The notes under the pieces were generated by a model. It made no database searches, was not told the origin of the DNA, and was given only the letters and a program-made list of their open reading frames with translations. From the NCBI RefSeq assembly GCF_000230715.2, contig NC_019792.1:1426001-1490000 (forward strand): a stretch of 64,000 bases of DNA, in the 5' to 3' direction. The translations under genes were made by a program, and so were the position numbers. The stretch's first letter is position 1; every line of letters starts with the position of its first letter. Below are positions 56,249-64,000 of this stretch, piece by piece. Origin of the DNA: Natronobacterium gregoryi SP2 (GTDB lineage: Archaea > Halobacteriota > Halobacteria > Halobacteriales > Natrialbaceae).

Positions 56249-57196
56249 TCATTCGGTTCGTCGATCGTCTTCGACTGCCGGGAGAGTGTCCCACCCCGGC
56301 GTCTCCGATGCACCACGGGCACGCTCGATCTGTCCGCCTAGCTCCGGCGTCAGCTCCGCAGTCGAGCGTGCGAGAGCCTGCCACTCCCGAATCGCCGGGC
56401 CGACCCACGACTCCGTCTCGTCACCGACCGCTCGCTCTTTCCCCCACTCGTAGTGAGAGTCCGAAATCGCGAGCGTGCCGGGACTCGAGGCGGCGGCGAC
56501 GGCCAGACACTCCGCTCGATCGGCCGCCGTGAGGTTCCCGTCGACGAGTCGATCGATCGTTCCCTCGAGATCCCTGGGCCGTGGGTGACAGAAGAGTTTC
56601 TCGCCGATCGCCTGCGAGCCAAGCAGGAGATCTTCGGGCGTCGTCTCGACACTCTCCGCGAGCAGTCGGTTGCCGCCGACGGCCGCTTCGACGCGTTCGC
56701 ACTCAGTCTCGTACTCGAGCGCGAGGTTGTGAGCAGGATAGGCACTACATTCCGCGGGAAACAAGTCTTCGTCGTGGACCCGGCACTGCAGGGTCTCGGG
56801 GTCGAGAAAGACACAGGCTGGCAGCCACGACGATTCCGCGCGGTCGAAAGGGGCAACCGGCTTCGGCGGTTTGCACAGACCGACGAAAAAGACCGGCCGT
56901 CCAGCGACGGCGGCGACCTCGTAACCGTCGATCGTGACGCCTTCCTCGTCGTCGCGAGCGCCCCAGAACCGCAGCGTCAGCGCGGCAGCCATCCCCGCCT
57001 CGAGAAAGTCTCTGACCTCGTCACGAGCGAGTGCGACGAAGTTCGGATCGTCGTCCAGCGGCGGCCGACTGTTCTCGCCACTGTGGAGAGGGCCACGGCT
57101 CGAGTCGCTCACGTCCCCGTCTTCGTCGGTCAACTCCGCGAGCAGCGGCTGCCAGTCGAGACAACAGCCCGCACAGCCCTCGCAGTTCACCTTCAT
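56249..57196 (-). CDS. YkgJ-type cysteine-cluster protein
   Basis: 315-residue protein with an N-terminal cysteine cluster, MKVNCEGCAGCCLDWQP, of the YkgJ/CxxCxxCC type that may hold a metal or iron-sulfur centre. The second part continues with VFFVGLCKPPKPVAPFDRAE, LPACVFLDPETLQCRVHDED and LFPAECSAYPAHNL, giving more conserved cysteines. ATG 57196 puts the first cluster at the very N-terminus; an alternative start at 57223 adds nine residues including a cysteine. Function of the family is unknown. Converging/overlapping frame at 56009-56341 is not convincing. Confidence 0.78.
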   Translation of the reverse strand: MKVNCEGCAGCCLDWQPLLAELTDEDGDVSDSSRGPLHSGENSRPPLDDDPNFVALARDEVRDFLEAGMAAALTLRFWGARDDEEGVTIDGYEVAAVAGRPVFFVGLCKPPKPVAPFDRAESSWLPACVFLDPETLQCRVHDEDLFPAECSAYPAHNLALEYETECERVEAAVGGNRLLAESVETTPEDLLLGSQAIGEKLFCHPRPRDLEGTIDRLVDGNLTAADRAECLAVAAASSPGTLAISDSHYEWGKERAVGDETESWVGPAIREWQALARSTAELTPELGGQIERARGASETPGWDTLPAVEDDRRTE

Positions 57197-57279
57197 ACAG
57201 CCGAATACGGACTCGACGCGCATAATCGTGTCTGCCCTCGAGGGGAACGACTTTCACCGTTCGGCGACCACCTCCGGGT

Positions 57280-58410: not shown

Positions 58411-60243
58411 GTGAGTCGAACGGTGAACCCCGACCGGAGCTTCGAGGAGTTTCCCGCGCCCAGCTACCGCGGGAACCAGGAATCCGCCCTCCAAGACATT
58501 CGTGACGCGTTCGCGGCCGACAACGACATCGTCCTCGTGCGTGCGCCGACCGGCAGCGGCAAGTCTCTGCTTGCACGCGCCGTCGCTGGCTGTGCCCGGC
58601 CCGCCGGCGAGGCCGACCCCAGCGAGGCAACGGGTGCCTACTACACGACCCCACAGGTTTCGCAACTCGACGACGTCGCGGCCGACGACCTGCTCGCCGA
58701 TCTCAACGTGATCCGCGGGAAGTCGAACTACACCTGCATCCTGCCGGACGAACGAAACACGCCGGTCAACCAGGCACCCTGCGTCCGCGAACGAGGGTAC
58801 GACTGCTCGGTGAAACACCGCTGTCCGTACTTCTCCGACCGAGCGATCGCCTCGAACCGCGAGATTGCGGCGATGACGCTCGCCTACTTCATGCAGACCG
58901 CCGGCAGCGAGGTCTTTCGCAAACGCGACGTCGTCGTCGTCGACGAAGCCCACGGCCTCGCCGAGTGGGCCGAGATGTACGCGACCATCCAAATCGGCCC
59001 CCGAACCGTCCCGTTCTGGGACGACCTCCGACTGCCCGACATCGACGACCTCGAGCGTGCCGTCCGCTACGCAGAGAACCTCCAGCAGACCTGCACCCGG
59101 CGCAAAGACGAACTGCTGACACAGGAGTCGCTGACGCCCGGCGAGGTCCGTGAACGGGACCGACTCCAGGAACTAATCGGCGAACTCGACTGGTTCGTCT
59201 CCGACTATCGGGACCCACAGAGCCCGACGACGTGGCTCGTCGACCAGTCCGAGCCCTCGAGCGACGACGAGAAAAAAGAGGGCGGGCCGCTGACCGTCAA
59301 GCCGATGAATCCCGAGAAGTACCTCCAGCACACCGTCTGGGACCGAGGTAACAAGTTCGCCCTGCTATCGGCGACCATCCTCAACAAAGACGCCTTCTGT
59401 CGCCAGGTCGGCCTCCCCCCCGACAACGTCGCACTGGTCGACGTCGGCCACACCTTCCCCGTCGAAAACCGGCCGCTGTACGACATCACCCAGGGGAAGA
59501 TGACCTACGAACACCGATCGGAAACGACGCCGAAGATCGCCCGTACTATCGTCCGGATCATGCAAAACCATCCCGACGAGAAAGGACTGGTTCACGCCCA
59601 CTCCTACGACATCCAGGAGCGACTCGCCGACCGACTCGCCGACTTCGGCGTCGGCGACCGGGTCCGGACCCACGACCGAGACAGTCGTGATGCCGACCTA
59701 GAAGCATGGAAAGCCACCGACGACCCTGACGTCTTCCTCTCGGTGAAGATGGAGGAAGCACTGGATTTGAAAGGCGACCTCTGTCGATTCCAGGTCCTTT
59801 GCAAGGCTCCCTTCCTCAACACCGGCGATTCGAGAGTGGCACACCGACTCGAGGAAGGACAGTGGGCGTGGTACTACCGAACCGCACTGCAAACGGTCAT
59901 CCAGGCCTGTGGCCGGGTCGTTCGCGCCCCCGACGACCACGGTGCGACGTATCTGGCCGACTCGAGCCTGCTCGACCTGTTCGAGCGAGCGAAGTCCGAC
60001 ATGCCCGGCTGGTTCAAAGAGCAAGTCGACCGGATGTCACGACCGGAGCTGCCAGCGTTCGAGCCACGGGCTGCAGTCGGCGAAACGGACTCGAGTAGCC
60101 CGTCACGAACCGACACCGGGAGTTCGACCGGAGCGAAAACGAACGCGGACCGTTCTCGCCAGTCACGTCGCTCGTCGTCTCGAGCCTCGCGGTCGCGCTC
60201 GCAGTCGAGCCCTGTCGCCGACGTCTGGGAGACGGACGGCTAA
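58411..60243 (+). CDS. DEAH-type DNA helicase of the XPD/DinG/Rad3 family
   Basis: 610-residue superfamily-2 helicase starting with GTG 58411. Walker A APTGSGKSLLARA (residues 45-57), an iron-sulfur domain with four cysteines (C at NYTCILPDERN, QAPCVRERGYDC and HRCPYF) as in XPD, Walker B/motif II VVVVDEAHGLAEW, motif III LLSATILNKDAF and motif VI QACGRVVRAPDDHG. The C-terminal 60 residues are a serine/arginine-rich low-complexity tail. In other organisms these helicases unwind DNA 5' to 3' in repair; the exact role here is not fixed. Confidence 0.94.
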   Translation: MSRTVNPDRSFEEFPAPSYRGNQESALQDIRDAFAADNDIVLVRAPTGSGKSLLARAVAGCARPAGEADPSEATGAYYTTPQVSQLDDVAADDLLADLNVIRGKSNYTCILPDERNTPVNQAPCVRERGYDCSVKHRCPYFSDRAIASNREIAAMTLAYFMQTAGSEVFRKRDVVVVDEAHGLAEWAEMYATIQIGPRTVPFWDDLRLPDIDDLERAVRYAENLQQTCTRRKDELLTQESLTPGEVRERDRLQELIGELDWFVSDYRDPQSPTTWLVDQSEPSSDDEKKEGGPLTVKPMNPEKYLQHTVWDRGNKFALLSATILNKDAFCRQVGLPPDNVALVDVGHTFPVENRPLYDITQGKMTYEHRSETTPKIARTIVRIMQNHPDEKGLVHAHSYDIQERLADRLADFGVGDRVRTHDRDSRDADLEAWKATDDPDVFLSVKMEEALDLKGDLCRFQVLCKAPFLNTGDSRVAHRLEEGQWAWYYRTALQTVIQACGRVVRAPDDHGATYLADSSLLDLFERAKSDMPGWFKEQVDRMSRPELPAFEPRAAVGETDSSSPSRTDTGSSTGAKTNADRSRQSRRSSSRASRSRSQSSPVADVWETDG

Positions 60244-60429: not shown

Positions 60430-61014
60430 TCACGTGACGTTGAACACTGCCACCGAGAGGACGAGCGTAAGTAGAAGCGTTAGCAGAACCGCCCACAACA
60501 ACACGATCAACGTGAGGGAAAACGGAGAGGACGAAAACCGCTGTTTTTGATCGGTCTCAGGATCACTGGCAGCTTCCGAGAACGTGAATGCACGTGAGTC
60601 TGTCTCTGATCGACTGGCACCGGATTCGAAAGTGATCGGTACCTCAGTTCGGTCGTTTGGCTCGGAGTATGCCGACCGATACGAGATATAGTCGAGAATG
60701 TCGACAGCCAAGCTATAGTTCGAGGCCGTAGCGATCGTGTCCGACTCTTCGTCGTACTGGATAATGTCGTGGTCCACCAGTTTCGGAATGTGATTCTGTT
60801 TGAGTGAAACACGGACGCTGTTGTGTCGGCCGTCACCGTAACCATCTTCACTCGTGACGATCTCGTTCACGACCGCATTTAGTGGAGTTCGACAGTCATG
60901 TCCCTTTAAAGCCCGAATTGTGATCCGCCTTCGTTCGTTAGAAATGAGTTCGATAAGCCACTCACGGTCGCTCGAAGCAGATTGCTCATCGACTGTCTTA
61001 TTGTGAGAGCCCAT
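60430..61014 (-). CDS. Winged-helix (DUF7344-like) regulator with C-terminal membrane anchor
   Basis: 194-residue protein from ATG 61014 (MGSHNKTVDEQSASSDREWL). Residues 20-110 form a winged-helix-like DNA-binding domain (LISNERRRITIRALKGHDC, SVRVSLKQNHIPKLVDHDII), a pattern I know from haloarchaeal regulators of this type. The C-terminus (about 165-192) is one transmembrane helix (LTLIVLLWAVLLTLLLTLVL). Being membrane-tethered, it might control its own region, including the divergent or adjacent cohesin gene. The upstream frame before 61014 is not family-like. Confidence 0.72.
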   Translation of the reverse strand: MGSHNKTVDEQSASSDREWLIELISNERRRITIRALKGHDCRTPLNAVVNEIVTSEDGYGDGRHNSVRVSLKQNHIPKLVDHDIIQYDEESDTIATASNYSLAVDILDYISYRSAYSEPNDRTEVPITFESGASRSETDSRAFTFSEAASDPETDQKQRFSSSPFSLTLIVLLWAVLLTLLLTLVLSVAVFNVT

Positions 61015-61261
61015 CACAAACAGTGGGACAATTACCTCATATATAGTACCTCCGGACAATTCAGACTCGGCGTAAGTGATACTGCCGGACAGAACGACGT
61101 GACGATCGGTCGCTCTGCTGGGGCCGTCACCGGTGGAGACGGCCGCAAATCCGCGACCGACTTCGTATTGACTTCTGTCCGACACACAGTCTGACCAGCA
61201 GAAAGCGATAGAATCGGTCGCTGGTCACTCGAGAAGTAGTGGGGTGGCGACCCGTAACAGT

Positions 61262-61936
61262 TCACTGCTGTCCAAGTCGTTTTCCGTACAGAACAGCACC
61301 GACGATCACAGCCATCAGCAACACACCTGCACCGAAGGCAGCGCCCACAATCGTAAGCGGCGACAGATCGAGGACGCTTTCACTGATAGCCGTTTCAGTA
61401 CCGACCACTTCGAGCGAGGCTGACTCGGTCGTGATTTCTTCGCTGCTGGCTTCGTACACATCGAGGTCTGCCGTATTAACCAGTGTATCCGCCTCTATAA
61501 ACTGGATGTCAGTCTCGTCACCCCCAGTGCCGACGACGTCGAACTCTAGGACTGCTACTGTCGGATGTTCGTGTCCATCCTGGTGAGAACTCGTCAGGTA
61601 CACCCAGCCGTCGTCGTTGTCAAAGTTCGTGACTGGATCAGGAAAATCCGCGCCGGTAGCATTGTCAAACTGGAGAACGGACGGATCGAAAGAGACGTTC
61701 GCCTCGTATCCGGCGAGATCATCACCACGTGCGCCGAGTGTGACTACTGCGGCTTCTTCCGGACTTTCGGTTTCGGCTTCGAGCACTACGCCGAATTCGT
61801 CTTCCACCGTGGCAACCTGGGAGGTTTGGGTCGAAGGCAATCCGGCCGCAGTTACAGGTGCGGCAAAGAAGCCAGTAACGACCACCAGAGCCAGTAGGAC
61901 ACCGGCGACCGTAGACGCCGTTGTTATGTGTTTCAT
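61262..61936 (-). CDS. Secreted cohesin-domain protein with C-terminal membrane anchor
   Basis: 224-residue surface protein. ATG 61936 gives a Sec signal: MKHITTASTVAGVLLALVVV and TGFFAAPVTAAG with cleavage expected near the TAAG. The mature part (about 40-180) is a cohesin-like beta-sandwich: VVTLGARGDDLAGYEANVSF, DPSVLQFDNATGADFPDPVT, FDNDDGWVYLTSSHQDG and VAVLEFDVVGTGGDETDIQF. A hydrophobic helix (LTIVGAAFGAGVLLMAVIVG, about 192-212) and a short basic tail (YGKRLGQQ) anchor it. Cohesins bind dockerins; the neighbouring subtilase carries both modules, so this protein may display it on the cell surface. Confidence 0.8.
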   Translation of the reverse strand: MKHITTASTVAGVLLALVVVTGFFAAPVTAAGLPSTQTSQVATVEDEFGVVLEAETESPEEAAVVTLGARGDDLAGYEANVSFDPSVLQFDNATGADFPDPVTNFDNDDGWVYLTSSHQDGHEHPTVAVLEFDVVGTGGDETDIQFIEADTLVNTADLDVYEASSEEITTESASLEVVGTETAISESVLDLSPLTIVGAAFGAGVLLMAVIVGAVLYGKRLGQQ

Positions 61937-62088
61937 GCACAATGTACCAATAGCAGTGCTGTTAAAATTTTCGCAAATATACGTAATCTAACAGGCAGAC
62001 GAGTCGGCAACAATCGATGGACAGATGCTGAATCGCCAGAAGTGGCGTGGAGCAGGGAGAACCTACTCGTGTGGATGGCTAGTGCCAG

Positions 62089-64000
62089 TTATCCTGCCAG
62101 AGCAGGAGCCACCTCTTGTTCTTCAGGTTCGAAACCGGGATGATCAGGTTCGGTGATGTGTTGCAGGATAGCGGTCACGTCGGCAGATGTCACGTCGCCG
62201 TCCTGGGTCACGTCACCGTAGGTTTCGACCGCTTCGGGGTCGACCGGGATGTCCTGGCCAGCCAGGTACGCCTGGACTACGACAGCGTCACCAGCGTGGA
62301 TCTCGCCGTCGCCGAGCACGTCACCGAGCTCGCGGTCGAGCGACTTGATTTCGCCCCAGTCTAGGTCAGTCTTCAGTTTCTCACCCATCTCGTCGGTCAC
62401 GACGCTGTCGTCCTCGAGGTGGAGTTCGGTCGTCTCTCCCTCCTCGAGACCTGACGCGTTGAACTCGATCTTTGCCAGGTCAGGGTCGTCGTACCCTTCG
62501 GCTTCGGCACCGGCCACGTACAGCCAGCCGTCGTCGTTGTCGATCTGGTACTCTACGTTGATGTCCTGTTCGATGACGCTCTCGATGGAGACGTTCTCAG
62601 GATCGAAGTCGATGAACGACTGGAAGCCAGCGATGTCATCGTCGGAGTCCGAGTAGACCGTCGTCCAATCTTCCGGGTAGTCCTCCGAGACGTTCGCGTC
62701 CTCGATCGACATGCTAGCTACCGCTTCGGGCTCTTCGGCATCCATGAAGTACTCGATCGAGTTAGTCAGGACGTCGACACCGTCGTCGGTGTGATCGCCA
62801 GGGGAAATCCAGCCGAATCCAACCGACGTCAAGAGCACGTCGTTACGATCGTAATCGACGGCAACACCGTCGTCACCGTCTGCCTGTTCGGCGACGACGT
62901 CAGCATCCGTGCCGCTGAACGAAGCGCCGTCACCGAACGTGTCGGTGTGTACCGTTATCTCGTCGCCTGGCTCTGCAACGTCTTCGAAGATCGGGTGTGC
63001 TTCCTCGACGTGCCAGGTCGCAAGGTCCGTGCTCCGGACGACGTCAGCCGGGTCGTCGATCACATCAGATCGAGTGTCTAACGAGTCAGGACCGATGTTC
63101 TGAGACGTGTAAACGGTCGAAACGTCGTCAGTCACATCGAACCACTCCTCGGCGTTGCCGTCGTCGAGGGAGTGGACGAAGTACGAATCGTACGCGTCGA
63201 CATCGTCCAGCGCGTCACTAGAGTCGACCGAGTCGACCTCGTACACAGCAGGATAGTAGTCCTCGAGTTTGTCTGCCCAATCGTCTCCGTAGGTTGCCAT
63301 ATCGTCGATAACAGCAACCTGGAAGAACTCGTCGAACGCTTCCGTCGGACCGGTCGTCGCGACGAGTTCGTCACCAGCGCCTTCGAAGGTGTGTTCGAGT
63401 TCGATTTCGCCGGCAACGTCGTCTTCGGTGTCGACCGTGATCTCGACTTCGTCGGACCAACCGTCGAGGTCGAGTTCGACAGCTTCGCCGAATGCAACTT
63501 CCTCACCGTCGACGGACAGCGTCACGTTGCCCTCGTAGTCGGCAACCTCCTCGACGGTCACGTACTCCGCGTGTGCGGGATAGACAGTGACGGAGACGTC
63601 ATCGCCAGCTTCGATCGTCTCTGGCTGGTCCTCGAGCAGTTCGAGGTCGAGTTCGGCGTCAAGTTCGAAGTCCTGTTCGGCGGTTTCGTTCTCTTCGAGG
63701 TCGACGGTCTCGGTCTGGGCAGCGTGGCCGAAGGCGTCAGCGGTCACGTCCCAGGTTCCGTCTTCGTGGATCAGCGTGTACGAGCCGTCCGCCTCGGTCG
63801 TGGCAGCGAAGCCGGTCTCTTCGACTTCGACTTCGGCACCCTCGAGGCCGTTATCTGTCGCATCGTACACCGTCCCTTCGATCTCCTGGTCGTGTGCGAC
63901 TTGCTGGACGGCGGCGTGGCTATCGATGATACCGGCACCGTAGATCTGGTCGTCGCTCGGCTCCCAGGCCGTGTCTTCGATGATCTCCTGGAACTGTTCG
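62089..64000 (-). CDS. Secreted subtilase (S8) with cohesin and dockerin modules, partial at right edge
   Basis: The frame enters from the right. Its first visible residues (EQFQEIIEDTAWEPSDDQIY and GAGIIDSHAAVQQ) are the end of a subtilisin-type S8 protease domain (GaGivda..AV). Next comes a carboxypeptidase-regulatory-like domain (IEGTVYDATDNGLEGAEVEV), an acidic beta region (about 63000-63700), a cohesin-like module (GFQSFIDFDPENVSIESVIE, DNDDGWLYVAGAEAEGYDD, about 62340-62720) and a C-terminal dockerin with two calcium-binding repeats, DVLGDGEIHAGD and DVTQDGDVTSAD (about 62150-62330). The stop is TAA-type at 62089. The catalytic Asp/His/Ser lie outside the window. Confidence 0.85.
   Translation of the reverse strand, partial: EQFQEIIEDTAWEPSDDQIYGAGIIDSHAAVQQVAHDQEIEGTVYDATDNGLEGAEVEVEETGFAATTEADGSYTLIHEDGTWDVTADAFGHAAQTETVDLEENETAEQDFELDAELDLELLEDQPETIEAGDDVSVTVYPAHAEYVTVEEVADYEGNVTLSVDGEEVAFGEAVELDLDGWSDEVEITVDTEDDVAGEIELEHTFEGAGDELVATTGPTEAFDEFFQVAVIDDMATYGDDWADKLEDYYPAVYEVDSVDSSDALDDVDAYDSYFVHSLDDGNAEEWFDVTDDVSTVYTSQNIGPDSLDTRSDVIDDPADVVRSTDLATWHVEEAHPIFEDVAEPGDEITVHTDTFGDGASFSGTDADVVAEQADGDDGVAVDYDRNDVLLTSVGFGWISPGDHTDDGVDVLTNSIEYFMDAEEPEAVASMSIEDANVSEDYPEDWTTVYSDSDDDIAGFQSFIDFDPENVSIESVIEQDINVEYQIDNDDGWLYVAGAEAEGYDDPDLAKIEFNASGLEEGETTELHLEDDSVVTDEMGEKLKTDLDWGEIKSLDRELGDVLGDGEIHAGDAVVVQAYLAGQDIPVDPEAVETYGDVTQDGDVTSADVTAILQHITEPDHPGFEPEEQEVAPALAG

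Follow-up and report, generated by a model that had tools for sequence, protein, structure and literature searches.

What archaea use cohesin and dockerin modules for has been an open question, to which the haloarchaeal loci described here bring a defined cargo, an anchor and a conserved gene order. The closest tested precedent is in Archaeoglobus, where the ORF2375 dockerin has been reported to bind the ORF2376 cohesin strongly and specifically (PMC9705933). Archaea were earlier said to lack large scaffoldins; scaffoldin-like proteins with up to 5 cohesins have been described in ANME archaea (PMC9012536, 2022). In Clostridium thermocellum, surface anchoring through ScaD has been proposed for an S8 protease with a double dockerin (dDoc_0689; PMC12484212). 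Haloarchaeal dockerins have so far been interpreted as substrate-binding modules (PMC10963439; PMC13260240). Our search of the open-access literature (subscription papers were outside its scope) returned no description of a haloarchaeal protease-cohesin system.

We analysed a 64,000-nucleotide stretch (the window, G000:C1:1426001-1490000) of the Natronobacterium gregoryi SP2 genome, a single contig of 3.79 Mb. At the end of the window, a gene for a secreted S8 protease lies directly upstream of a gene for a small cohesin protein, on the same strand and across a 146-bp gap. Judging from sequence comparison, the two probably constitute the minimal form of a two-gene system in which cohesin-dockerin binding tethers a secreted enzyme to the cell surface.

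Results

An anchored cohesin protein and a cohesin-dockerin subtilase

The features of the locus are as follows:

56249..57223, minus strand: cysteine-rich flanking gene, second synteny marker (53% identity in genome G087)
58411..60243, plus strand: Rad3/DinG-like helicase, convergent flanking gene, synteny marker
60430..61185, minus strand: DUF7344 protein with a C-terminal membrane helix, third gene of the neighbourhood
61262..61942, minus strand: cohesin anchor protein, 226 aa (TTG start; ATG at 61936 equally possible)
61289..61363, minus strand: C-terminal transmembrane helix of the anchor protein; the short basic tail YGKRLGQQ comes after it (hydrophobic segment, AlphaFold2 model)
61406..61789, minus strand: cohesin domain of the anchor protein, residues 52-179 (Pfam, haloarchaeal profile, predicted fold)
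61841..61942, minus strand: Sec-type signal region of the anchor protein (hydrophobic segment near residue 12)
62089..64000, minus strand: 3' part of the gene for an S8 subtilase with cohesin and dockerin (about 1.3 kb more beyond the window)
62149..62337, minus strand: type I dockerin of the protease, residues 999-1061, two calcium loops, 19 residues after it
62341..62706, minus strand: cohesin domain of the protease, residues 876-997 (haloarchaeal profile, fold)
62722..63654, minus strand: middle region of the protease (no Pfam match)
63661..63882, minus strand: carboxypeptidase regulatory-like domain PF13620 of the protease, residues 484-557 (Pfam)
63931..64000, minus strand: C-terminal end of the S8 catalytic domain (remainder outside the window)

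The original prediction, made from the letters of the window, assigned the small protein a Sec signal, a cohesin domain and a C-terminal membrane anchor, and our analysis confirmed all three. Hydrophobic segments lie at both ends of the protein, corresponding to the signal and the membrane anchor, and the haloarchaeal cohesin profile matches the domain between them at 2e-40 (the seed of this profile contains the same domain). The AlphaFold2 model (pLDDT 77) comprises a sandwich and a C-terminal helix and resembles solved cohesins with E around 1e-7. The score against the Pfam cohesin family is marginal (23.3 bits with a cut-off of 24.1; 24.4 bits in the genome search). A search for PGF-CTERM in the window's anchor protein gave no match, and the protein ends in a plain membrane helix. 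The anchors of relatives end in a membrane helix or a PGF-CTERM-like signal, with PGF-CTERM signals recognisable in several.

Completed from the genome sequence, the protease has 1080 residues and begins with a Sec-type signal. Its S8 domain (residues 201-467; Pfam, 118 bits) contains the full catalytic triad D210/H249/S422, encoded outside the window. The roughly 310 residues between the regulatory domain and the cohesin matched nothing in a Pfam search. The protease cohesin itself scores marginally against Pfam (18.0 bits, cut-off 24.1); the profile of haloarchaeal relatives, which was seeded with these sequences, is unambiguous for both cohesins of the window, and a profile of related cohesins matches solved cellulosomal cohesins. 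AlphaFold2 models the protease tail (pLDDT 86, pTM 0.72) as a beta sandwich with three helices after it. The best PDB match of the modelled cohesin is 2xdh, a cohesin of Archaeoglobus fulgidus (E 7e-11), and the other listed matches are bacterial cohesins. The Pfam and profile matches and the completed gene bear out the expectation of an adjacent secreted S8 protease ending in a cohesin and a dockerin, and the DNDDGW(V/L)Y pattern ascribed to both cohesins is real (FDNDDGWVYL and IDNDDGWLYV). Chance resemblance of the cohesin and dockerin domains was rejected in view of the fold matches together with the gene linkage.

Halolysins are known as Tat substrates. No twin-arginine motif was seen in the signal of the window's protease, so that the label 'halolysin-like' is a loose one.

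The dockerin is above the Pfam cut-off (PF00404, 33.7 bits), is helical in the model and contains the duplicated calcium-loop/helix motif. It has two calcium loops, DVLGDGEIHAGD and DVTQDGDVTSAD. At ligand position 3, Leu (first loop) and Thr (second loop) stand in place of Asn/Asp; of the 'two intact calcium repeats' originally described, two loops are thus present and neither is intact at this position. In the first loop, position 3 is occupied by Asn or Asp in most relatives and by Leu in the window's clade, which includes Halopiger goleimassiliensis and Halovenus rubra. Because position 3 is non-canonical in both loops, calcium-driven folding of the window's dockerin is perhaps weaker.

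The third gene of the neighbourhood, encoding the DUF7344 protein, also follows the pair in Halopiger goleimassiliensis (L035 8234-8791) and Halovenus rubra (L036 12106-12726). Its product is possibly a membrane-bound regulator.

Across the source genome, Pfam recognises exactly one dockerin, that of the S8 protease, and three cohesins, all in single-cohesin proteins: the two at the locus and a divergent one elsewhere. The protein with this third cohesin (L005 5648-6322; G000:C1 about 225.6-226.3 kb) has a signal and a C-terminal membrane helix. Its gene has no dockerin beside it and adjoins genes whose sequences resemble those of metal-binding/uptake proteins; similar loci occur in G235 and G023 (L109, L110). 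Haloarchaeal cohesins therefore exist outside docking pairs too.

Conservation of the gene pair with exchangeable cargo

The original prediction had staked itself on the two genes occurring together in relatives, and they do. Among 243 genomes of the order, a query with the protease's cohesin-dockerin region found matches in 18, and reading these loci showed an anchored cohesin gene adjacent in 14. The anchor-cohesin profile, searched alone, retrieved 27 of the 243 genomes; 23 of these have the cohesin gene immediately downstream (3') of a dockerin gene in the same orientation, often with a 4-nt overlap. Eight of the 23 were retrieved through the cohesin alone, the dockerin neighbour being seen only afterwards. 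With about 243 dockerins across the 243 genomes, chance would place a dockerin within 1 kb of a given cohesin gene with a probability of roughly 5e-4, which gives roughly 0.01 adjacent pairs expected among 27, compared with the 23 observed.

A separate pattern scan of named genomes, which partly overlaps the first survey (several genomes are the same), showed the pair in the same order at 12/12 cohesin-retrieved loci. These belong to two Haloarchaeobius, Halomicrococcus gelatinilyticus, three Haloarcula, Halopiger goleimassiliensis, Halovenus rubra, Halobiforma nitratireducens, Natronorubrum texcoconense, Halorubrum tebenquichense and an uncultured Halobacteriales genome. In Halobaculum halobium the pair is on a plasmid. 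No adjacent dockerin was found in 4 of the 27 cohesin genomes (G235, G023, G030 and G126), nor, in a survey of 125 genomes of the family, beside two extra cohesin genes of G244 and one of G255. A scan of viral contigs found no relatives.

The cargo of these loci varies. Beside the cohesin gene, the dockerin is carried by an S8 protease, a calcineurin-like phosphoesterase, a PhoX-type phosphatase, a beta-helix protein or others. What is constant is a dockerin on the enzyme and a cohesin on its anchored neighbour; the cargo is exchangeable. Nearly all S8 cargoes beside an anchor have a cohesin directly before the dockerin; some proteases of G266 have a dockerin and no cohesin. The calcineurin-like phosphoesterases also have a dockerin and no cohesin of their own, which makes the anchor the obvious receptor. 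Phosphoesterase and cohesin-anchor genes are paired, mostly with a 4-nt overlap, in Haloarcula and others (L102-L108, L118, L120, L121, L146). Such a pair is a simpler model system than the protease pair.

Dockerins also occur in other settings. A 2.7-Mb haloarchaeal genome (G003; L101 and others) has at least 25 dockerin genes and one locus matching the cohesin profile; its orphan dockerins are of the DFxGDGxVDxxDVLALF type. At five loci (L048, L049, L050, L051, L095), proteins of about 1500-1760 aa carry a dockerin internally, near residue 490-590, and their genes have no cohesin gene as a neighbour. S8 motifs were seen in those of L048-L051.

The docking model and its alternatives

Under the docking model, the subtilase would be exported by the Sec pathway, as its signal suggests, and would fold outside the cell. 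Its C-terminal dockerin would then bind the cohesin of the neighbouring protein, presumably in a calcium-dependent manner, and that protein would be held in the membrane by its C-terminal helix. A protease held in this way would be displayed on the cell rather than diffusing into the brine, and the peptides that it releases would be kept near the cell. At the level of genomics, the surface docking put forward in the original prediction is supported by the conserved adjacency (23/27 genomes, 12/12 loci), and the observation behind it holds with the correction to the calcium loops.

Several points weigh against docking to the anchor: the non-canonical calcium loops, the four genomes of the order whose related cohesins lack a dockerin neighbour, the third cohesin of the source genome, likewise without one, and the protease's own cohesin, which could be the partner of the dockerin instead. 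The original prediction also allowed for protease chains. In these, each dockerin would bind the cohesin of a further protease molecule, and the anchored cohesin would form only the base; we regard this as conceivable though doubtful. Chains would fit the cohesin that directly precedes the dockerin in nearly all S8 cargoes beside anchors, and are hard to square with the phosphoesterases and G266 proteases that have no cohesin to offer. In the cohesin phylogeny, in which many forks are unresolved, the anchor and scaffoldin cohesins fall largely into one clade apart from the cargo cohesins (6 to 8 label changes versus 39 in shuffles), and this separation into classes also argues against chains. 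The window's protease cohesin is an exception, placed on a long branch inside the anchor group.

In a mirror-tree analysis, dockerin divergence tracks that of the anchor cohesin beyond the divergence of the protease domain (partial r 0.53, 0/2000 permutations) and beyond that of the cargo cohesin (partial r 0.41, no permutation as high). The dockerin also covaries with the cargo cohesin (partial r 0.61), as chains would predict, although covariation inside one protein is expected anyway. The mirror-tree result therefore supports coevolution without singling out the anchor, and leaves room for chains or for packing within one protein. Strands 3, 5 and 6, which presumably bind the dockerin, rank with the best-conserved strands in either class of cohesin, and strand conservation therefore cannot tell which cohesin is bound.

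Packing within one protein, in which the protease's cohesin and dockerin would form a stabilising tail and the anchor would have some other role, we consider improbable. The two modules are adjacent and the modelled tail reaches a pTM of 0.72 overall, a value that by itself does not demonstrate docking; the conserved anchor gene and the dockerin-only cargoes beside anchors would be left unexplained. It is very hard to credit that the dockerin binds a substrate or has some other role and that the cohesin gene beside it is incidental, as the many haloarchaeal dockerins that lack a nearby cohesin gene and the proposals made for haloarchaeal polysaccharide enzymes (PMC10963439; PMC13260240) might suggest, since this type of cohesin adjoins dockerins far above chance, whatever the cargo.

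Multi-cohesin scaffoldins at the same chromosomal site

The wider family to which the pair belongs offers more of interest than the minimal locus of the window. In the family survey, multi-cohesin proteins were found in one related genus (g6), in genomes G265 (4 and 2 cohesins), G087 (8) and G266 (14 and 3). Pfam confirms the proteins with 8, 14 and 3 cohesins; the 4-cohesin protein of G265 rests on the haloarchaeal profile and is not listed by Pfam. Two to eight dockerin subtilases lie beside the 4-, 8- or 14-cohesin scaffoldins: eight in the G266 cluster, all confirmed by Pfam, and five S8 dockerin genes in the G087 cluster, together with one dockerin gene without a recognised catalytic domain. 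The scaffoldin clusters share the chromosomal site of the window's pair, with the convergent helicase 77% and 75% identical and the next gene 53% identical.

The scaffoldin and its subtilases are most simply read as a multi-protease surface complex, and in the simplest history the scaffoldin would have grown from a single-cohesin anchor. We somewhat favour the view that, in this genus, a membrane-anchored scaffoldin of up to 14 cohesins gathers up to eight different dockerin subtilases on the surface into a cellulosome-like protease complex, and that this complex arose, through duplication of cohesins, from the two-gene pair retained in the window. At this one locus the number of cohesins rises in steps from 1 to 14. 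With the defined cargo and anchor and the conserved gene order, this makes a system that can be tested directly and that may serve as a salt-tolerant docking tool.

Far from its scaffoldin cluster, G266 also encodes a 2162-aa beta-propeller/CARDB/PKD protein with a C-terminal cohesin and dockerin (L145 762-7250).

Comparison with known systems

The Archaeoglobus fulgidus pair resembles the window's pair in that it consists of ORFs with consecutive numbers, the dockerin on one and the cohesin on the other, and its structure, 2xdh, heads the fold matches of the window's protease cohesin. It differs in that the haloarchaeal system has an identified enzyme cargo, a clear membrane anchor and a wide spread with varied cargo. 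The ANME archaea likewise have multi-cohesin, scaffoldin-like proteins; the common dockerin proteins there are substrate-binding components of transporters, whereas in haloarchaea they are proteases and phosphatases, with up to 14 cohesins and a C-terminal anchor on the scaffoldins. In C. thermocellum dDoc_0689 a subtilase is recruited by a dockerin, as it would be here, but as one accessory enzyme of a cellulase system; in the window the protease is the cargo and the anchor gene its neighbour. Halolysins are secreted haloarchaeal S8 proteases like that of the window, which differs from them in its Sec-type signal and cohesin-dockerin tail.

The source genome has no multi-cohesin scaffoldin, in contrast to G265, G087 and G266, and no dockerin-bearing polysaccharide-degrading enzyme, its only Pfam dockerin being on the protease. 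On the haloarchaeal scaffoldins we saw neither an SLH anchor nor a carbohydrate-binding module. Haloarchaeal cargoes are proteases and phosphatases rather than polysaccharide enzymes, the anchors are PGF-CTERM-like or transmembrane, and most cargo proteases also carry a cohesin, all unlike the bacterial cellulosome. Shared with it are the cohesin and dockerin modules, the anchored cohesin proteins and, in the window's relatives, the multi-cohesin scaffoldins, and by analogy the expanded clusters of genus g6 look like a protein-digesting counterpart of the bacterial cellulosome.
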